Positions 2,003-30,859 of a DNA stretch of 31,778 nucleotides are shown in pieces. The notes under the pieces were generated by a model. The model was not told the DNA's origin and searched no databases. It saw nothing but the letters and a program-made list of their open reading frames with translations. The stretch is from a virus. The stretch covers positions 1 through 31,778 of IMG/VR virus record IMGVR_UViG_3300029267_001574. The stretch is one strand, 5' to 3'. A program made the translations under genes and the position numbers. The stretch's first letter is position 1. Every line of letters begins with the position of its first letter.

Positions 2003-2047
2003 ATGAACAGCCAGACAGACAGCGTGGAAAGCCGGGGGTCGAAGTGA
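2003..2047 (+). CDS. 14-residue leader peptide coupled to terminase small subunit
   Basis: An ATG at 2003 has one of the best Shine-Dalgarno sequences in the window (AAGGAGG at 1991-1997) and opens a 14-codon frame, MNSQTDSVESRGSK. Its stop overlaps the GTG start of the terminase small subunit gene (GTGA at 2044-2047). The terminase GTG has no comparable site of its own, so this short frame probably feeds ribosomes onto it. The frame also contains a 23-base sequence repeated near the start of the gene at 21159. If the peptide is not real, the strong ribosome site may serve a terminase start by reinitiation. Confidence 0.5.
   Translation: MNSQTDSVESRGSK
2010..2032 (+). repeat. 23-bp repeat, copy 1
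   Basis: Begins GCCAGACAGACAGC and ends GTGGAAAGC. Differs at one base from 21167-21189. Both copies start 7-8 bases after a start codon, in different reading frames. Confidence 0.65.
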
Positions 2048-6314: not shown

Positions 6315-7405
6315 CCGCCGCGTATATCCTCGACGACATGCCCGCCCTGCCCGCAAAGCCCAAAGACCCGCTGGGCCGTCATGTGGCGTGGGTGGCGCTG
6401 ACCCAGGCGCCGGGATTCATCTACGGCGACAAAGCCTTCAAGGTCGATGAAGACTTCATTAAGGCCCAGATCGACGGATACCGCAGCCTGACCCGCGCCG
6501 ACTACACCGCGCCTGTCCTACGAGAGCACAGCCGCAACGGCGAGCGCAGCGGCGATGTGCTGGCGCTGGCGTCAGTGGTCATTGACGAGCGCCTGACGCT
6601 GATTGGCGCGCTGGCTCTGTCCGACCCCGAAGCACAAGACAAAATCAAGCGCGGCGAGATCAAGTACGTCTCGCCCAGCTTTGGCCCGATATCCGACGAC
6701 CGGGGCCGTGACTTTGACTTTGCCTTGCGCGAGGTCTCTTTGGTCGCAGCACCCCACCAGAAACACTTGAGCCCCGGCGTGACCCATGTCCTGGGCAAGG
6801 AGCAAGGCGAGATGGACAAAGACAAGTCCACCGAGCAGGAGGTCTCGACCTCCGACGCGCCCAGCGTGGAAGAGCGCCTGGGCAAGATGGAAAGGGCGAT
6901 GGCCGAGCTTTTGGAGCTGAAGCAGCTCATGGAAGCCGCCATGATGGAAGGCGACGACGAAGAGGAGGAAGTGGAAGGCCCGCAGATGGGTGAGCCCGCC
7001 GAATCCGCCGAAGTCGTCAGCCTGCGCGAGCAGGTGGAGGCGCTGGAGGTCGAGCGTGACCGCGCCGTGTGGGAGCAAGGCGACCGCCAAACCCTGACCG
7101 TCACCCCTGACCTGGACGCGCTGCTCTTCGCCGCGTGGCGCGCGGACAAAGAGGGCATGAGCGCCATCCTCTCCGAAGCCGCCAAAGCCGCACCGGCCAA
7201 AGAAAAGCAGCCAGCCAAGCAGCCTGCACCGACCCCCGTGTCGCCGTGGTTTCGGATGTCTGAAGCGGCCCCCGTGCCGGGCGGCGATGACATCAAGCCC
7301 GCGACGGACGCCGACCTTTCGGCCAAATCGCTGGAGATGGCCGAAGGCGATCAAGTCAAGGCGCTCAAAATCTACAAGGAACTCAAGGCCCAGCGCCTTC
7401 ACTGA
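6311..7405 (+). CDS. Capsid maturation protease fused to scaffold
   Basis: 364 residues. The first ~165 resemble Mu gpI-type head proteases: a histidine in PVLREHSRNGERSG (H73), a serine in IKYVSPSFGP (S121 or S123, the SPxF motif), and a closing LREVSLVAAPHQK typical of prohead proteases. A flexible charged linker follows, then an acidic, helical region (EERLGKMERAMAELLELKQL, the acidic run near 215-225, and SLREQVEALEVERDRAVWEQ) with heptad character, as in internal scaffolds. The C-terminus is helical and basic. As in Mu, where the scaffold is encoded in the 3' part of the protease gene, an internal start for free scaffold is possible, for instance the ATG at 6811. It processes the prohead before DNA entry. 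Confidence 0.8.
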   Translation: MTAAYILDDMPALPAKPKDPLGRHVAWVALTQAPGFIYGDKAFKVDEDFIKAQIDGYRSLTRADYTAPVLREHSRNGERSGDVLALASVVIDERLTLIGALALSDPEAQDKIKRGEIKYVSPSFGPISDDRGRDFDFALREVSLVAAPHQKHLSPGVTHVLGKEQGEMDKDKSTEQEVSTSDAPSVEERLGKMERAMAELLELKQLMEAAMMEGDDEEEEVEGPQMGEPAESAEVVSLREQVEALEVERDRAVWEQGDRQTLTVTPDLDALLFAAWRADKEGMSAILSEAAKAAPAKEKQPAKQPAPTPVSPWFRMSEAAPVPGGDDIKPATDADLSAKSLEMAEGDQVKALKIYKELKAQRLH

Positions 7406-21162: not shown

Positions 21163-21359
21163 GTCGGCCAGACAAACAGCGTGGAAAGCTGTTGCACACA
21201 GGGGTGGCCCTTGTGCTTGCGCTGGTGCTGTCGGCGCTGAGCTACAAGGCCGCGCGCTGTGGTGGCCCGGTGTACGAGGTCGAGGATTATGCAGGCGTCG
21301 TCGTCGGTGAAGATCTCAAAGACTCCCTGCGGGATGCGGGGGTGGAGGTGGTGGAGTGA
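21159..21359 (+). CDS. Small membrane protein at the head of the lysis cassette
   Basis: 66 residues. A basic N-terminus (SRPDKQRGK) precedes one hydrophobic span (about 12-32, HTGVALVLALVLSALSYKAA), then a short acidic periplasmic tail with one cysteine. One membrane span with a basic cytoplasmic end right before the endolysin gene fits a holin, pinholin or inner-membrane spanin, and the short acidic tail does not settle which. It overlaps both neighbours by four bases. Its first codons contain a 23-base sequence also found near the terminase start (2010-2032), in another frame. Confidence 0.55.
   Translation: MSRPDKQRGKLLHTGVALVLALVLSALSYKAARCGGPVYEVEDYAGVVVGEDLKDSLRDAGVEVVE
21167..21189 (+). 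repeat. 23-bp repeat, copy 2
   Basis: Begins GCCAGACAAACAGC and ends GTGGAAAGC. It lies in the first codons of the small membrane protein gene that opens the lysis cassette. Confidence 0.65.
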
Positions 21360-22651
21360 GCAAAGGACTGAAGACATTTTTATGGGTCGATGGCCAGCGC
21401 CCCCGGCCTTCCACGCTGGCTGGCTGGCTGGAGTGGCTGGTGGGTCTGGCACTGTCGAGGGCGATCTTGCTGCTCAACGACACCAGGGAAGAGGGCGAGA
21501 CGTGGACGGACGATGACCTCATCGCGGCAACCGCTGGTCTCCAGGATCGCGGCATGAAGGCCGTGTGGATGTGGTGGGCCACCTCGACGCGCGCCGCCAT
21601 CGACGAGCAGATCGCCGACCTCGACAAGTTCTTCACGATGGGCGCCCGCCCCGATGGGCTCCAGTGGGACTGCGAAGAGCACTGGGGCCGCGCAGGTGTG
21701 GATTTGGCGCCGTATCTCTCGGAGCGTATCTTGTGGCTGCTGGACAAGCACGGGTGCTCGCACCTACCGCAGGTAGCCAGCGCCCAGGGCCTGCATTACG
21801 TCGAGGTGTCGATCACAGCGATCGTCGGCAAATGGAAGGACAAGACCATGCGCGCCCAGGATGCCGCCGTGTGCCAGACTGATGCCTTCACAGCGGGATA
21901 CACCCAGGCTTATCTCTTCTTCAATCCCAAGCCTGGGCACTGGTCCCGCAATCTTCCCAGGCAGCCCGGCGCCATCCAGAGGGGCACATGGGAGGCGTGG
22001 CACAAGATGCTCGATGACGAGTACCACGACGAGCCGTTGAACGGGCTCTACAACGGCCTCGATCTGATCTACATGGGCAACGCGGCGCATCTCCAGCGGA
22101 TCCCCGGCGTGTCTGGCCTCGACGGCATGCGCTGGGGCGTGGAGGCCTGTCAGGTGCTAGAGTCTACCCACCCTGACACCTTCGCTGGTGGCGGGTGGTG
22201 GTCTGGCAAGCACGTCAAAGGCAACGATGGCAAGGCTCGCATTGTTCAGGGTGCCGCAGGGTCTGAGCACATCGGAGCACCGTCCATGCCCCCCTCGGCG
22301 CCTTTCGATCTCGCCCGCGCCGTGGCCTTCAATGCCCGGCGCGATCACTGGGAGAGCATCCCCGATCAAGCCCTGGAGCGGTGGCCCGGTCTCAAAGCCC
22401 ACCACACCAGTGAAGCCTTTGCCGAGGCCGCAGCGGCATACCAACAGGCGCACGGGCTGACCCTCGATGGCAAGCTCGGCACGGGCACCCTGGGTCACAT
22501 GATTGAACTCTTTGGCCCTAAGCAATCCCCGATGATGGCGTTCATGGATGCGGTGTGCGCGGTCCAGGGATCCAGCGCTAGAATGTTCCGCCCCAGCGGC
22601 GTAACGATCACCGACGACGACATGAACGCGAACGACTGGAGGGTGGCATGA
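21356..22651 (+). CDS. Endolysin: glycosidase-like domain plus peptidoglycan-binding domain
   Basis: 431 residues, GTG in a GTGA overlap. The first ~275 residues read as a TIM-barrel-like hydrolase: strand-helix repeats, GLQWDCEEHW (101-110) with D105, E107 and E108 as possible catalytic acids, and an aromatic YTQAYLFFNPKPGHWSR. I cannot place it in a named glycoside hydrolase family. Residues ~352-385 (EAFAEAAAAYQQAHGLTLDG, then LGTGTLGHMI) are a typical PG_binding_1 domain (YQ...GL-LDG-LG-GTL). There is no signal peptide, so release would need a holin. The last codons, TGG AGG GTG GCA TGA, fall within the tandem duplication that begins at 22637. Confidence 0.75.
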   Translation: MSKGLKTFLWVDGQRPRPSTLAGWLEWLVGLALSRAILLLNDTREEGETWTDDDLIAATAGLQDRGMKAVWMWWATSTRAAIDEQIADLDKFFTMGARPDGLQWDCEEHWGRAGVDLAPYLSERILWLLDKHGCSHLPQVASAQGLHYVEVSITAIVGKWKDKTMRAQDAAVCQTDAFTAGYTQAYLFFNPKPGHWSRNLPRQPGAIQRGTWEAWHKMLDDEYHDEPLNGLYNGLDLIYMGNAAHLQRIPGVSGLDGMRWGVEACQVLESTHPDTFAGGGWWSGKHVKGNDGKARIVQGAAGSEHIGAPSMPPSAPFDLARAVAFNARRDHWESIPDQALERWPGLKAHHTSEAFAEAAAAYQQAHGLTLDGKLGTGTLGHMIELFGPKQSPMMAFMDAVCAVQGSSARMFRPSGVTITDDDMNANDWRVA

Positions 22652-22870
22652 TGCGACTGATTTTGATTCTCGTGGCGCTCTGCACGCTGGCTGGCTGCGC
22701 TGGTCAGCAGAGCGTAGACTGGGCCGGTCTGGTGGTGGATGCAAAACCCGCATTGGAGGGTGGCATGATGCGACTGATTTTGATTCTCGTGGCGCTCTGC
22801 ACGCTGGCTGGCTGCGCTGGTCAGCAGGGCGTAGACTGGGCCGGTCTGGTGGTGGATGCAAAGCCCGCAT
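22637..22870 (+). repeat. Perfect-frame 117-bp tandem duplication (two copies)
   Basis: Copy 1 is 22637-22753 and copy 2 is 22754-22870. They differ at two bases only (A22711/G22828, giving Ser to Gly, and A22746/G22863, silent). The unit is 39 codons long and holds the end of the endolysin gene, a ribosome site (GGAGG), the double ATG, a whole lipoprotein signal peptide and the first mature residues. The near identity shows a recent event. Confidence 0.97.
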
Positions 22871-25158: not shown

Positions 25159-25264
25159 CGTCCACCTCCCCGCTGCCCATGATCAGCCAGAAGCCCACGA
25201 CCACCGCCGCAAGGCCAGTCAGGAAGCGGGTTAGGTTCTTTGCCTTCTTCACATGTCGTCGCAT
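25145..25264 (-). CDS. 39-residue single-span membrane protein
   Basis: An ATG at 25264 with an excellent ribosome site (AAGGAGGGG, nine bases upstream) opens a 39-codon frame: basic MRRHVKKAKNLTRFLTG, a hydrophobic span (LAAVVVGFWLIMG) and an acidic end of five aspartates after GEV. The positive-inside pattern and ribosome site support a real gene, too short for usual gene callers. It overlaps the NTP pyrophosphatase gene upstream by 16 bases and the next small frame downstream. Function unknown; phage micro-proteins of this shape often act on host membrane complexes. Confidence 0.65.
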   Translation of the reverse strand: MRRHVKKAKNLTRFLTGLAAVVVGFWLIMGSGEVDDDDD

Positions 25265-25743
25265 TGGTTGCCCCTCCTTGTCGGGTGATCGATGATCATG
25301 TCACGCGTCACGCCGATCAGCTGCAAGATCCAATCCCACTGATATTCCGTCACGCTGCCTTCGATAAGGCCCTTGGCGGTGTAATGGATGGCGTCTGCAA
25401 GCTCGTCTTCGATCTCCTTGGCTGTGTCCCTGCCGTCGAAGGTCATCAAGCTCTGGCCGTATTTGGCGCGACCGAATTGATCACGTTCCTGAATCAGTGC
25501 AGCGATATGCGCCGCATCATGGTAGCTTCGCACCATCCCAATCATCTCGACGGCTTTTGGCGTCACCGCTTCAACCCCAGCGTGCGGCGCATCAGGCAGA
25601 TCCTTGAAGGGCTCCAGCACCTCAATGGCCCTCAGCAGGTCTTCACGCCCAATCCGCACCATCGGTCGCACCGACCACACACCTTCGACTTGCGCATTTG
25701 CCAGTGTCACGAGCCAGTCACGCACGTCTTTCACGGTCTTCAC
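25249..25743 (-). CDS. All-alpha NTP pyrophosphatase (phage dATP/dGTP hydrolase-like)
   Basis: 164 residues from the GTG at 25743, which overlaps the RuvC stop (GTGA) and follows AAAGGAGGT; an upstream in-frame ATG at 25785 is less likely. The C-terminal half has ERDQFGRAKYGQSL, FDGRDTAKEIEDELADAIHY, the ER--FG-KYG-L ... E--DE-AD pattern of MazG-like/dNTP pyrophosphatases in phages. The N-terminal ~75 residues are helical and unassigned. It would trim nucleotide pools during phage replication. It is not closely similar to the MazG-like protein at 1171, so the phage has two distinct enzymes of this superfamily. Confidence 0.65.
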   Translation of the reverse strand: MKTVKDVRDWLVTLANAQVEGVWSVRPMVRIGREDLLRAIEVLEPFKDLPDAPHAGVEAVTPKAVEMIGMVRSYHDAAHIAALIQERDQFGRAKYGQSLMTFDGRDTAKEIEDELADAIHYTAKGLIEGSVTEYQWDWILQLIGVTRDMIIDHPTRRGNQCDDM

Positions 25744-26336
25744 CTTAGCACCTCCTTTCCGGTCCACACCCACAGCGCCGCACATGCGTCCGCCACGTGC
25801 TCTCGCTTGCTCTTGGGCAGCGCATCAAGCACCGGCCCCAGCGACGGCACCAGGCGCCGCATCGCAGCCTCCACAGCATTCTTCGACGAGCCGCGGCCAG
25901 CGGTCGCCCTCTTGATTTCCTTTGCCGTGACACTGGCCGTGCGCAGGTCCAGCGCCGCACACACCCCACGGGTCACACCGTGCGCAGCTCCAACGGACTT
26001 CCACGCCGTACCGCTGCGGCTGTTGCCTCCTGCGGCCTGCTCAAAGACAGCCAGATCGGCACCTTCGGCCAGCACCTCAGAAAGCCCACGCGCCAATGCG
26101 CCCAGGCGAGCATCAAAGGCGTCCGCCACCGTCTGGCCGATCTGTCGGCGCTTGGCTGGCGACTTGAGGGCGGGCACCTTGATCACACCGCCCTTCTTGA
26201 CCTCCAAATGCCCAGGGCGCGCAGACTCCGCGCAGACCCACCCATATCCATTGATCGACGGGTCCAGGCCCAGGAGGATGATACCGTGGCCTGAGAGGCT
26301 AAGGCCGTCGTACAGGCTGGGTGTCTGTCTGGTCAT
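25740..26336 (-). CDS. RuvC-like Holliday junction resolvase
   Basis: 198 residues from the ATG at 26336, which lies six bases after GGAGGT; a GTG at 26339 is adjacent. The RNase H-like core is clear: LLGLDPSINGYGW (first acidic residue D25), LAVFEQAAGGNSRSGT (E99), SVTAKEIKRATAGRGSSKNA (basic DNA-contact helix) and KREHVADACAALW (H180/D183). This is the phage/bacterial RuvC family, which cuts branched DNA made during replication and recombination before packaging. The GTGA overlap couples it to the NTP pyrophosphatase downstream. A short 17-base stretch near its start is shared with the lipoprotein gene at 19530. Confidence 0.9.
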   Translation of the reverse strand: MTRQTPSLYDGLSLSGHGIILLGLDPSINGYGWVCAESARPGHLEVKKGGVIKVPALKSPAKRRQIGQTVADAFDARLGALARGLSEVLAEGADLAVFEQAAGGNSRSGTAWKSVGAAHGVTRGVCAALDLRTASVTAKEIKRATAGRGSSKNAVEAAMRRLVPSLGPVLDALPKSKREHVADACAALWVWTGKEVLR

Positions 26337-26375
26337 CACTTACCTCCATAGGCCGTTGTCACCTCTCCGACAGCC

Positions 26376-26391
26376 AGCGGGCTTTTGGTGT
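26376..26391 (+). repeat. 16-bp direct repeat, copy 1
   Basis: AGCGGGCTTTTGGTGT, identical to 26827-26842, 451 bases apart. Read on the minus strand both encode a T-K-S-P-L peptide in open frames, so they may be remnants of a duplicated gene end. Confidence 0.6.
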
Positions 26392-26535
26392 GGTCCGCTG
26401 GGGCACAATGAACGGCGGCGCTGGTGGGTGGGTCGGAAAACAGATGTCCAATCCTGTCTGCATTCCCCGAAGGGAAGGAGCCCATCCCTCTAAGTGGCCA
26501 GCGCCTCACATGGTGTACCACCCACCCCCACCTGC

Positions 26536-26754
26536 CTAAAAAACCGATTGAGTCAGCCGATCCGCCGTGTGGCGCTTTGACTCGTGCGGTGTGCGGGCGC
26601 GGGCGGCACAAATGGTGTCCTGGTGGCCTTCAAGGCAGACGGCGACGCACGGCGAAATGGCGACTTTCAATCCTGCGCAGTGCCACCGATGGCTCGGCAC
26701 TGCGCATTTGCAAAAGTGGTGCGCGTCGTGTCGCCCTGATTGCTCCCAGGACAA
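26536..26754 (-). CDS. Doubtful 72-residue Cys/His-rich protein
   Basis: A frame from a TTG at 26754 includes HHFCKCAVPSHRWHCAGLK and a run with three more cysteines (ISPCVAVCLEGHQDTIC), spacing that could hold zinc. Many third positions are G or C. Against it: a TTG start, no ribosome site, and strong inverted repeats within the coding stretch. The frame stays open upstream through the tRNA-like fold. I list it as a possibility only. Confidence 0.25.
   Translation of the reverse strand: MSWEQSGRHDAHHFCKCAVPSHRWHCAGLKVAISPCVAVCLEGHQDTICAARARTPHESKRHTADRLTQSVF
26674..26706. repeat. 11-bp perfect inverted repeat
   Basis: TGCGCAGTGCC (26674-26684) and GGCACTGCGCA (26696-26706) with an 11-base loop. 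No T-tract follows on either strand, so it is not a simple terminator. A palindromic TTTGCAAA lies just beyond. Confidence 0.75.
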
Positions 26755-26756
26755 GG

Positions 26757-26823
26757 CCCCAGCGCCGGAGTCGAGCCGGCGTCGCCACCACCAGCGTTCT
26801 ACACGCTGACTGGCTGACTGGGG
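26757..26823 (-). other. tRNA-like fold without a D arm
   Basis: On the minus strand (5' end at 26823) a 7-base acceptor-like stem pairs CCCCAGT with GCTGGGG (one G-U), enclosing an anticodon-like arm, CAGCG-TGTAGAA-CGCTG, and a T-like arm, GCCGG-CTCGACT-CCGGC, each with a 5-base stem and a 7-base loop. Only 8 bases lie where a D arm should be, the 3' end is not followed by CCA, and the base before the anticodon position is G instead of the usual U. So this is not a normal tRNA gene; it could be a decayed tRNA, a mimic, or chance pairing in GC-rich DNA. Confidence 0.3.
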
Positions 26824-26826
26824 ATA

Positions 26827-26842
26827 AGCGGGCTTTTGGTGT
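26827..26842 (+). repeat. 16-bp direct repeat, copy 2
   Basis: Identical to 26376-26391; it lies four bases beyond the tRNA-like fold. Confidence 0.6.
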
Positions 26843-26924
26843 CGGCGCGGTGTCGGGAGAGACCCGCGCCAGCACGAAAGGAGGGAAGGCGGCGCCCGCT
26901 GGGCCGACCTTCAAAGCGGTCAAA

Positions 26925-27173
26925 TCAAGCGCGAGAGCTGGCGCTTTGAGCCTCCACACGCTGGCTTGCTTTGGCAGGTGGCCCATCTTTCCACCTGAGC
27001 AAGGCCCAGGGCGACCGGGCCATCTCTTCCAGCACGAGCCGCAGGCATCGACCGCACAGGCGCTTCTGTGCCGGGCTGCACTGCTTGCAGGGGCCGGGGT
27101 CGATCTCGAAGCCGTGCCCCAGCACAAGGGACCACGGTGATTTAGGTCTTGGCAGTATCTTTGCTGGCGTCAT
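26925..27173 (-). CDS. Small Cys4 (zinc-ribbon-like) protein
   Basis: About 82 residues. Three starts are possible within six bases (GTG 27179 in a GTGA overlap, ATG 27176, ATG 27173); 27173 has the best distance, five bases, from GGGGAGG. The core EIDPGPCKQCSPAQKRLCGR followed by C holds C-x2-C and C-x2-C pairs, a likely zinc site, then a helix LRLVLEEMARSPWALLRWKD. The C-terminus is basic and serine/alanine-rich. Small zinc-ribbon proteins are common in phage early operons as host-takeover or DNA-binding factors; the target is unknown. Confidence 0.55.
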   Translation of the reverse strand: MTPAKILPRPKSPWSLVLGHGFEIDPGPCKQCSPAQKRLCGRCLRLVLEEMARSPWALLRWKDGPPAKASQRVEAQSASSRA

Positions 27174-27175
27174 CA

Positions 27176-27496
27176 TCACCTCCCCAGCCGCTCGCCCAGC
27201 TCATGCGCCGTCAGCGGCTTTCCATCCTTGTCCTCGTACTGACCCCGGTTGCGCCCACCATCCACCACCCACCCCTTGAAGGCCGCGGCAGGCTTTGGCT
27301 TCGGCCCCAGGGCATAGACGCCGACAGCCACCTCGTAGATCTTCCCCTCGTCGCGCATCTCCTTGATGACCTCCACGGCCTCCAGTGAGCAGCCGTCGAG
27401 GGACACCAGCAGCGCCCACAAGTCCATCTGCGTCTTGGCCTCCAGCACCCTAATGATGCGGTGTCGTATCGCTGCGCCCATCACCTTTGTCTCCAT
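27176..27496 (-). CDS. Winged-helix-like protein of unknown role
   Basis: 106 residues from ATG 27496 (GAGGT nine bases upstream; ATG 27481 is an alternative). RHRIIRVLEAKTQMDLWALL, SLEAVEVIKEMRDEGKIYEV and AVGVYALGP give the helix-helix-wing order of a small winged helix. The C-terminus (FKGWVVDGGRNRGQYEDKDG) is polar and basic. Probably a transcription or replication accessory factor; no partner is indicated. GTGA overlap with the Cys4 gene downstream. Confidence 0.55.
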   Translation of the reverse strand: METKVMGAAIRHRIIRVLEAKTQMDLWALLVSLDGCSLEAVEVIKEMRDEGKIYEVAVGVYALGPKPKPAAAFKGWVVDGGRNRGQYEDKDGKPLTAHELGERLGR

Positions 27497-27508: not shown

Positions 27509-27925
27509 TCAGCCGGTGAAGTCGCCAAAGTGCTTGGCGTTGTGTTGCTTGGCCTTGAGGATGTCCTCAAGGATCACCACAAGGCCCTGAGCGAGCAGAC
27601 TAGGCCCGCCATCTGGCGCGGTAGTGCTACAGCGATCCCACTGACCATGAGCCACCGCGTCGCCGTACTCGTCACCAATAGACCACTCGCCCTTGCTGTG
27701 GTCATCGGTCAAATAGCGCGCGGTGATGTACTCACCGCCGGTGATCTTCAGGATGTGCACCATGATGACACCCACAGTGGGGCCTGCGGCCATGTTGGCG
27801 ACGTACCCAATACGGTGCGTGTCGGGAATGCGGACCCGTCGGCGCTGGATCCCTGTCTTATCAAGACTGAGCGCTTCAAGGGCGGCTTCAGCGCGCAGAC
27901 CAAGAGCTTTGAGGTCGTCTTTCAT
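27509..27925 (-). CDS. Unknown early phage protein
   Basis: 138 residues from the ATG at 27925, set by GAGGTGG eight bases before it and an ATGA overlap with the gene upstream. It begins MKDDLKALGLRAEAALEALS and continues with a beta-rich centre (RIGYVANMAAGPTVGVIMVH, ILKITGGEYITARYLTDDHS) and a C-terminal helix (LLAQGLVVILEDILKAKQHN). It looks like a compact alpha/beta protein. No motif recognised. Confidence 0.6.
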   Translation of the reverse strand: MKDDLKALGLRAEAALEALSLDKTGIQRRRVRIPDTHRIGYVANMAAGPTVGVIMVHILKITGGEYITARYLTDDHSKGEWSIGDEYGDAVAHGQWDRCSTTAPDGGPSLLAQGLVVILEDILKAKQHNAKHFGDFTG

Positions 27926-28269
27926 TTTACCACCTCGGCCAGCATCTCCGCACACAGCCGGACACCAAAGACCGTTCCCGTCGCACGCCCCACCTTGCCC
28001 GTGCAGGCCCAGCGCAGGTGCGCCGAATCCCAGCGCAGCAGCACGCCCCCGGCGACGATGGCGTCACCCTCACGGCGGCACTCCAGCCCCGCAGCGCGCA
28101 GGAACCTCTTGACGGAATCGATGGCGCGGGTCTGGGGCAGCTTCAGGCCCTTGGCGGTGGCCACCAGCCTTGCGCCCTGACGCAAGATGATGGCGAGATT
28201 GATTTGGTGCTGCTCGGCGGCGGTCAGCGGGATTGGGTCGAGCGTGTGTGTGGCCTTCGTGTGGGGCAT
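27922..28269 (-). CDS. Unknown early phage protein
   Basis: 115 residues, ATG 28269 after AAGGAG. LTAAEQHQINLAIILRQGAR and TRAIDSVKRFLRAAGLECRR are helical; strands GDAIVAGGVLLRWDS and HLRWACTGKVG follow. The C-terminal helix holds a cysteine. It may bind nucleic acid given its basic helices, but I have no family. It starts 44 bases after the first gene of the operon. Confidence 0.6.
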   Translation of the reverse strand: MPHTKATHTLDPIPLTAAEQHQINLAIILRQGARLVATAKGLKLPQTRAIDSVKRFLRAAGLECRREGDAIVAGGVLLRWDSAHLRWACTGKVGRATGTVFGVRLCAEMLAEVVK

Positions 28270-29413: not shown

Positions 29414-29740
29414 ATGTCACAGCCATCTACAATCGAAAACGCCGCTCGACTGCTTGAAGCCCTGGCCGAGGTGGGCGACTGGCCTTTGACCGCTCATGAT
29501 GTCGCGCGCATGTGCGACGTGCACTATCAGACGGCGCTCGGGTGGCTGACGTCCTTGGCAGACAACGGACGCATCCACAGGCGCTACTACGGACGCACGG
29601 CGGCATTCCGCCCATTGTCGCCCGCTGAAGAGGCCAAGCGCCGCCGTCTGCTCGCCACTGGCAATCCGCTTGACGAGCTGGTAGCCAAGGGTCTTATGGC
29701 CGACCACGACCACGCAAGCGACAGCGGCGTCGCCCGCTGA
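29414..29740 (+). CDS. Winged-helix regulator of the early region
   Basis: 108 residues, ATG 29414 directly after AAGGAGGAAGGA. SQPSTIENAARLLEALAEVG, LTAHDVARMCDVHYQTALGW and LADNGRIHRRYYGRTAAFRP give the helix-turn-helix and wing of the IclR/MarR-like type. A short helix follows, then a His/Asp-rich end. It sits beside a divergent promoter pair and before the replication genes, so a Cro-like regulator is the natural guess, and sequence alone does not separate repressor from activator. A hairpin (29750-29791) follows the stop. Confidence 0.7.
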   Translation: MSQPSTIENAARLLEALAEVGDWPLTAHDVARMCDVHYQTALGWLTSLADNGRIHRRYYGRTAAFRPLSPAEEAKRRRLLATGNPLDELVAKGLMADHDHASDSGVAR

Positions 29741-29791
29741 AAAACAAAAAGACCCCGGCTCAAACGCTGCTGACACAGCTCGCCGGGGTCT
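29741..29791 (-). terminator. Intrinsic terminator for leftward transcription
   Basis: AGACCCCGGC (29750-29759) and GCCGGGGTCT (29782-29791) form a perfect 10-base stem with a 22-base loop. Read on the minus strand the stem is followed by TTTTTGTTTT (29749-29741), a strong intrinsic terminator. On the plus strand no T-tract follows, so it would stop only leftward transcription coming from the replication genes. Confidence 0.75.
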
Positions 29792-29801
29792 ACTACCAAG
29801 G

Positions 29802-29813
29802 ATTGATATCAAT
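29802..29813. promoter_or_regulatory. 12-bp palindrome, possible operator
   Basis: ATTGATATCAAT is a perfect palindrome in a short AT-rich patch 75 bases before the replication gene start. No second promoter box can be paired with it convincingly. A binding site for the preceding winged-helix protein is possible. Confidence 0.4.
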
Positions 29814-29820
29814 GATAGAA

Positions 29821-29830
29821 CACCCCCCTG
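29821..29830 (+). repeat. Isolated iteron CACCCCCCTG
   Basis: Same decamer as 30148-30157 and 30165-30174, and inverted at 30182-30191. It lies upstream of the replication gene, where binding of the initiator would also control its own expression. Confidence 0.5.
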
Positions 29831-29887: not shown

Positions 29888-30859
29888 ATGAACACTTTTG
29901 AATTCAATCGAGCAGTGCGAGATGCCGCCGATTTGACCACGACAGAGCGCGCCGTGCTGTGGTGCATGGCCACCTACCTGCCCAACATCTGCCCCTCCAT
30001 GAAGAGTTTGGCCAAAGGCGCTGGGGTCCACCGAGACACCCTGGGTCGTGCCATGAAGAGCCTGGAAAAGAAGGGCTGGTTTCAGAAGGTGCCGACCCCT
30101 GGGCGTGCCAACAAATACAACCTGACCCCCCCGCACAGTACACCCCCCACCCCCCTGAATGATGCACCCCCCTGTACCATGCAGGGGGGTGCATACGACC
30201 CCCCACACCCCCCCGCACAGTGCACCCCCGAAGAGACAAGAAAGAGACAAGAACAAGAAACAAACAACCAAACAGATTGTAAGACCGCGCGAGACGCATC
30301 GACCGACAGCCACGCTGGGTTGGTTGAGCTGGATTCTGATTTGCTGGTGGAAGAGCGGGCGGTGGTTGTACCTCCACCCATCCCCGATACCCCATCGACG
30401 TGGATGGCCAAGTGGGCCGACGTCTGGGGCAAGGTCTGTGGTCACGCCCCGCTGCCTCCCCTCGCACAGATCGAAGCGCTGCACTGTGACGAGCTGCGCT
30501 TTGCTGCTGCTTTGGCCAGGGTCGCCGCGCTGAAAAACGCCGGGACGCTGCGGTCTGCTCGCAAGGCTTTTTTCGGCACCTTGCGGAAATTGGCCGAGCA
30601 GGAAGACCACGAGATCAGCGCCTGGACCCCGGCTGGTGTGCTGCAAGAGCTTGAAGGCGAGAAGGTCAAGACCTCGACGGTGCCCTATCACCGACCGGCA
30701 GCGCCGGTGACACCTGAGCTGACCGAAGAGCAGCGAGAGGCCAATCGTGCGGTCATGCGTCAATGGGTCATGACCCCCAGCGGCGACCTGTTGCACACCG
30801 ACAGCCCCGAATACAAGCGGTACCAGGCTGCGCTTGAGCGGCGGGGGGTGACGGCATGA
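29888..30859 (+). CDS. Replication initiator / helicase loader (lambda O-like layout)
   Basis: 323 residues, ATG 29888 after GGAGG. Residues ~10-79 are a winged helix (TTERAVLWCMATYLPN, SMKSLAKGAGVHRDTLGRAM, EKKGWFQKVPTPGRANKYNL) of the kind that starts many phage replication proteins. Residues ~80-145 are a proline/threonine- then polar-rich linker whose DNA holds the origin-like repeats. The C-terminal half is helical (WADVWGKVCGHAP, ARVAALKNAGTLRSARKAFF) and ends in a charged helix, and would contact the helicase encoded next. Winged-helix, origin in the linker, and helicase gene overlapping by ATGA is the lambda O-P plan. A DnaC/P-type loader gene is not seen separately. Confidence 0.75.
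   Translation: MNTFEFNRAVRDAADLTTTERAVLWCMATYLPNICPSMKSLAKGAGVHRDTLGRAMKSLEKKGWFQKVPTPGRANKYNLTPPHSTPPTPLNDAPPCTMQGGAYDPPHPPAQCTPEETRKRQEQETNNQTDCKTARDASTDSHAGLVELDSDLLVEERAVVVPPPIPDTPSTWMAKWADVWGKVCGHAPLPPLAQIEALHCDELRFAAALARVAALKNAGTLRSARKAFFGTLRKLAEQEDHEISAWTPAGVLQELEGEKVKTSTVPYHRPAAPVTPELTEEQREANRAVMRQWVMTPSGDLLHTDSPEYKRYQAALERRGVTA
30126..30285 (+). other. Putative replication origin inside the initiator gene
   Basis: It contains a 22-base direct repeat with one mismatch (30126-30147 and 30208-30229, sharing CCGCACAGT followed by CACCCCC); CACCCCCCTG at 30148-30157 and 30165-30174, and inverted at 30182-30191; a 13-base perfect inverted repeat (ATGCACCCCCCTG at 30162-30174, partner 30182-30194, 7-base loop); and then an A-rich, thymine-poor tract at 30230-30285 suited to strand opening. 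Repeats in different reading frames argue against simple protein-coding cause. The order iterons then A-rich tract inside an O-like gene is that of lambda ori. Confidence 0.65.

Follow-up and report, generated by a model that had tools for sequence, protein, structure and literature searches.

A gap of 585 nt that is probably non-coding lies in the leftward gene set of the virus contig analysed here, between two genes of the same strand: a Cys4 ORF of 84 aa upstream and a gene for a RuvC-like Holliday junction resolvase downstream (Table 1). The window, by which we mean the whole stretch analysed, is an entire virus record of IMG/VR, 31,778 bases long, and its assembly has no other record. A near-identical contig (L015, 99.97% identity) bridges the last 123 bases of the window to its first base via 1,587 extra bases; as the window lacks these bases, the record is incomplete, and a circularly permuted genome of about 33.4 kb is probable. 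The leftward gene set begins at a promoter-like site at 29330-29302, one of two detected in the window by a consensus scan (shuffle average 1.2). A rightward set starts at about 29.4 kb and includes two genes that are called initiator-like and helicase-like from their sequence and place, without a family search. The first of these (29888-30859) carries, at positions 30125-30290 on the plus strand, repeats of the unit ACCCCCCCGCACAGT, a perfect dyad of 13 bp (30162-30194) and, after it, an A-rich run, an arrangement that resembles a lambda-type origin whose iterons lie within the initiator gene. At 29741-29793 a GC-rich hairpin stands beside an A-rich run and is followed on the minus strand by a T-rich run (local structure at 29686-29827, z -4.86); this hairpin, which was not called by the terminator pattern scan, may be a terminator of leftward transcription.

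An earlier note on this DNA had described a gap of some 590 bases devoid of any gene with a credible start, and this was borne out, the stop of the upstream ORF lying at 26925. The same note had neighbouring genes overlapping by four bases, which holds at the junction of the 84-aa ORF with the gene preceding it (27176/27179), while elsewhere the overlaps are larger or the genes are spaced by about 12 bases. The start codon of the downstream ruvC-like gene is ATG 26336 or GTG 26339, with GGAGGT ahead of it; the product of this gene gives a Pfam RuvC match that falls below the Pfam cut-off and, by sequence, no match among solved structures. Neither a sigma-70 promoter nor an intrinsic terminator was called by consensus scan within 26340-26924. 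The upstream ORF is doubtful as a real gene. It has a ribosome-binding site, two CxxC pairs and the overlap just mentioned, but its codon score is -0.06, its period-3 value is 1.01 (5th percentile), and PHROG and Pfam searches returned no protein family. Because this ORF alone folds no better than its shuffles (z -0.25 to -0.46), an extension of the structured region over it was dropped; an 840-nt stretch including the ORF gave z -2.7 on the minus and -6.4 on the plus strand, values based on 24 shuffles only.

The gap itself probably codes for no protein. All six ORFs of at least 60 aa scored in or across it begin with GTG or TTG, and their codon scores are without exception negative (-0.12 to -0.23 per codon), compared with +0.17 to +0.37 per codon for seven accepted neighbouring genes, two of which (25249-25785 and 25740-26336) were part of the training set. 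The window has a median period-3 value of 6.86; the gap has 1.14, which places it at the 4.4th percentile of 800 windows. When its six frames were read through stops, no significant match was obtained, the best E values being 0.016 (PHROGs) and 0.011 (Pfam). Codon bias, period-3 and family matching thus gave no mark of a protein-coding gene or of a pseudogene, and the decaying pair of small genes proposed earlier as one explanation was rejected on the stop-through frames and on a period-3 value near the window minimum.

Taken as a whole, the gap folds with z -4.01 on the minus and -3.91 on the plus strand. None of 108 same-size (585-nt) tiles over the window was as low (15 shuffles per tile, one fixed spread), and the two lowest of them were gap-overlapping windows at 26326. 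The gap contains 14 perfect Watson-Crick stems of at least 8 bp, where shuffles average 3.2; none of 60 shuffles reached this number and none of 267 window positions matched it. For the stretch 26396-26764, z was -5.76 on the minus and -4.13 on the plus strand.

Local structures were ranked by RNALfold z-score scans, in which structure borders are set by the program and not by hand. Arm A, a predicted rod built around an 11-bp inverted repeat, ranked first among 1,155 local structures at span 150 (z -5.86) and, as 26615-26753 on the minus strand, first among 2,043 at span 400 (z -6.81), where the domain of arms A and B ranked second. With hand-set borders arm A reached z -6.43 (minus) and -5.84 (plus), with 0 of 300 shuffles as low on each strand, and it was equalled by none of 2,110 minus-strand windows. 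The best program-bordered structure elsewhere in the window is at 6843-7054 (z -5.50); since structures elsewhere reach about -5.5, the margin of arm A is moderate, clear but not huge. At span 150 the best structure outside the gap is at 27637-27744 on the minus strand (z -5.1), within the gene at 27509-27955. The perfect inverted repeat had been pointed out before and is indeed present (26674-26684/26696-26706), as one of five hairpins in the window with a stem of at least 10 and a loop of at most 20 (shuffle average 0.6), whereas both arms, A and B, and the surplus of long stems had been overlooked. Arm B gave z -3.12 on the minus against -1.08 on the plus strand, and arm C, with -3.9 and -4.5, respectively, is slightly better on the plus strand.

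Table 1. Features of the gap and its surroundings (window positions unless stated otherwise).
Feature	Position	Strand	Remarks
Bridging contig stretch	L015 1-1710		window ends
RuvC-like Holliday junction resolvase gene, 198 aa, downstream	25740-26336	-	phrog_159, E 6.5e-21
Probable non-coding gap, in the sense of the leftward operon	26340..26924	-	585 nt; ORF map, codon score, period-3, fold z -4.0
Shine-Dalgarno GGAGGT of the ruvC-like gene	26340..26346	-	predicted partly or mostly paired
Direct repeat, 16 nt, 3' copy	26376..26391	-	
UUCG-capped 5-bp hairpin (minus: UUCCC-UUCG-GGGAA)	26463..26476	-	not significant
Predicted domain of arms A and B, 256 nt	26502..26757	-	RNALfold z -5.57, -131.3 kcal/mol
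Arm B, predicted hairpin: 12-bp outer helix with G-U pairs, 6-bp inner helix GAGTCA/TGACTC	26514..26610	-	
Arm A, predicted rod-like hairpin with internal loops, 138 nt	26616..26753	-	about -75.5 kcal/mol
Distal hairpin of arm A: 11-bp perfect inverted repeat, 11-nt loop	26674..26706	-	
T-arm-like stem-loop	26764..26780	-	belongs to no detectable tRNA
Anticodon-arm-like stem-loop, G where U33 expected	26792..26808	-	no detectable tRNA
Direct repeat, 16 nt, 5' copy (ACACCAAAAGCCCGCT)	26827..26842	-	
Arm C, predicted hairpin, 38 nt, near the 5' end of the gap	26839..26876	-	
Upstream ORF, 84 aa, CxxC-x7-CxxC	26925-27179	-	coding status uncertain

Total fold energies do not separate the two strands, and helices A1, A4 and B2 form on both. 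Helices A2, A3 and B1, in contrast, depended on the strand in each of three sequence contexts: their mean pairing probabilities were 0.92-1.00 on the minus strand but 0.00-0.15 on the plus strand, with 0.98-0.99 against 0.00-0.01 for the outer helix of arm B. Since they contain G-U pairs, these helices form only on the minus strand, and this favours an operon-sense RNA over a symmetric DNA palindrome.

The smaller elements of the gap fared unevenly. The separated 16-base direct repeat announced earlier was recovered, with its copies 451 nt apart, and only one of 3,000 shuffles of the gap had such a repeat. The 16-mer was also found in 11 viral contigs, which by our own estimate is about chance for a collection of such size, and blastn of the gap against those loci revealed no common neighbourhood. 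Also present is the hairpin formerly described as CGAA-capped (UUCG on the minus strand); with z about 0 and a pairing probability of 0.13-0.14, it was discarded as a meaningful element. The two stem-loops with tRNA-like geometry likewise exist, each with a 5-bp stem and a 7-nt loop and one of them close to a T arm, and complementary CCCCAG/CTGGGG ends are present, all of which a tRNA or tRNA remnant would explain; this reading is nevertheless hardly credible and was rejected, because ARAGORN found no tRNA in the window, the Rfam tRNA model was absent from the gap even at E 10, a D arm is missing, the bases at positions 33 and 54 are G and C instead of the canonical ones, the acceptor pairing probability is 0.02-0.43 and the stem-loops reach a z of only -2.3. 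With relaxed settings ARAGORN again gave no intron-free tRNA, and its two intron-containing calls at the 80% threshold were taken as chance.

Two further kinds of repeat were noticed in the window. A dispersed 23-nt repeat, GCCAGACAGACAGCGTGGAAAGC, occurs at 2010-2032 (+), 21167-21189 (+) and 21406-21428 (-) with 0, 1 and 3 mismatches, respectively, and in weaker copies, one of which (26796-26818, 6 mismatches) overlaps a tRNA-like stem of the gap; it is possibly a regulatory site. At 22637-22870, a 117-nt tandem duplication with copies 98% identical spans the end of one ORF and the start of the next.

An Infernal/Rfam search had been proposed in the earlier note as a check. Compared with Rfam, the gap matched no family at the gathering score, GOLLD, ROOL and HEARO included, and at E up to 10 gave three chance-level matches to other families, the best of them, V_AS7, scoring 18.6 bits where the cut-off is 90. 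Viral contigs, genome contigs and phage and plasmid collections were found to contain no relative that spans the gap. Searches of viral contigs with the ruvC-like protein, the 84-aa ORF, the 320-aa and 178-aa neighbours, the helicase-like protein and the terminase yielded only L015, L016 (about 94%) and L017 and L018 (36% protein identity); L015 and L016 span the helicase-to-terminase side, and L016 ends on the side away from the gap. A protein search of genome contigs returned one cellular RuvC, and in the phage and plasmid collections the gap, the ruvC-like protein and the 84-aa ORF were all without match. The single hit of a hairpin-pattern search (L019) was set aside as a short palindrome match. 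A 29-nt match in one of 398 genomes (L025) was also set aside, since neither a tRNA nor any other convincing similarity accompanied it. A single-sequence RNA model of arm A recovered arm A itself (both strands) and the L019 palindrome (E 0.4-0.6) from the window and the loci, and nothing from the 398 sampled genomes, a sample whose scan shows little. Among the papers listed by word searches of an open-access library, none dealt with a structured RNA before a phage RuvC-like gene.

We tentatively favour, at somewhat short of an even chance, the reading of the gap as an RNA element between cistrons of the leftward early mRNA, acting in RNase III-type processing and/or in control of the ruvC-like gene. 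As it carries the strongest local structure of the window, the gap probably serves the phage message in processing or control. It is flanked by same-strand genes and sits immediately ahead of GGAGGT, with the promoter-like site at 29330-29302 upstream. Phage RNase III processing signals have the shape of a long irregular hairpin between cistrons; predicted arm A is an irregular double-stranded hairpin, placed between cistrons and on the sense strand. Non-coding statistics, foldability beyond controls, minus-strand bias and the position of the gap were observed; its transcription, its cleavage and an effect on ruvC are inferred.

On this intercistronic reading, the gap would be a structured stretch, not translated, within the leftward early polycistronic mRNA, with the two-armed 256-nt domain as its core and the 138-nt rod of arm A dominant. 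A host double-strand-specific RNase (RNase III type) would cut the rod, thereby parting the message of the upstream small genes from that of the ruvC-like gene and possibly leaving behind a stable fragment. Pairing near the ruvC ribosome-binding site might tune the timing of resolvase production, and as an alternative or added role the gap could act as a structured leader of the ruvC-like gene. The ribosome-binding site is predicted to be partly paired in the context 26320-27024 and mostly paired in 26240-27179, so that control of resolvase translation is possible; that the predicted pairing shifts with the folded context counts against the intercistronic reading. So do the whole-gap fold, which is equally improbable on both strands, as a DNA inverted repeat would be, and arm A at span 150, which scores alike on the two strands (-5.86 and -5.80). 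In fixed 120-nt tiles the gap is at best 29th of 1,056 (-2.78) and its 3' third, 26340-26509, has z -0.10 alone, both of which also speak against it, as do the moderate margin of arm A, the want of any relative of the gap and the number of promoter-like sites (two, where shuffles average 1.2).

The main rival, which we regard as unlikely, is a free-standing phage non-coding RNA about 256 to 585 nt in length. It would be produced from the operon or inside it and would act on the host or the phage in trans, its place before ruvC being incidental. A size and multi-arm fold exceeding the controls, the minus-strand helices and the 16-nt repeat close to either end of the element argue for such an RNA; against it, the gap has no called promoter-like or terminator-like site, no Rfam family and no tRNAs nearby, and neither a second copy in the window nor one in the 398 sampled genomes was found, although that sample shows little. 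A non-coding RNA and a regulatory element had both been offered before as explanations, and both gain from the non-coding statistics, the top foldability and the minus-strand bias. It is distinctly improbable, though conceivable, that the gap represents an undescribed phage RNA class, multi-armed, 256 to 585 nt long, located in an early operon before a RuvC-like gene and with a 16-nt motif near both ends, that would serve as a trans-acting RNA or as a switch of resolvase expression.

Functionless foldability of a GC-rich non-coding spacer, possibly an insertion scar between the 16-nt repeats or the remains of decayed genes, seems rather unlikely. The distance of 451 nt between the direct repeats, the want of any relative that shows conservation and the unremarkable 120-nt tiles would fit a spacer, but arm A ranks first among the local structures of the window, the six stop-through frames are without significant Pfam or PHROG match, and the adjacent genes are tightly packed. 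We also consider improbable a DNA-level element, in which the imperfect palindrome, with or without the direct repeats, would serve for protein binding, recombination or single-strand initiation, perhaps as a cruciform substrate linked to the adjacent resolvase. The equal folding of the whole gap on both strands, the folding of arm A as single-stranded DNA (z -4.71) and the identity of the adjoining gene as a Holliday junction resolvase are consistent with this proposal; on the other side, several helices rely on G-U pairs and are lost from the opposite strand, and the likelier origin is at 30125-30290, within the initiator-like gene.

Annotation leaves many gaps empty in uncultured phages. 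The present one passes a window-wide foldability test and is, on predicted structure, a candidate structured RNA of an uncultured phage, narrowed to an exact 138-nt arm and a 256-nt domain, a strand and a neighbour gene. Should it prove a true regulatory or trans-acting RNA, a family beyond the holdings of Rfam would be gained; should it be a processing hairpin, the annotation would be ordinary but useful.

Several known systems invite comparison. In HEARO, the omega RNA of IscB, a structured RNA stands just upstream of a RuvC-fold gene, as does the gap; IscB is about twice the length of the 198-aa resolvase encoded downstream here, and the gap is without an Rfam match. GOLLD and ROOL are described, in the relevant passages of PMC12286853, as large multi-arm phage RNAs of unknown function that are often near tRNA islands. 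As a free-standing RNA the gap would be of the same general kind, but it has no Rfam match, its significant domain is shorter, and no tRNA was found in the window. DicF, an sRNA of the dicBF prophage operon, lies within a phage-derived polycistronic transcript and, as stated in the passage on it in PMC10448788, does not need its own promoter; the gap would share this arrangement, although DicF is given there as 53-190 nt in length and no sequence match between the two is claimed. The T7 R1.1 signal, for which an excerpt of PMC4858673 gives a substrate of about 60 nt (47- and 13-nt products), is shorter than the 138-nt arm A and far shorter than the gap, where processing is predicted; what the RNase III signals of T7 early mRNA and predicted arm A have in common is an irregular hairpin placed between two genes on a polycistronic early mRNA of a phage.
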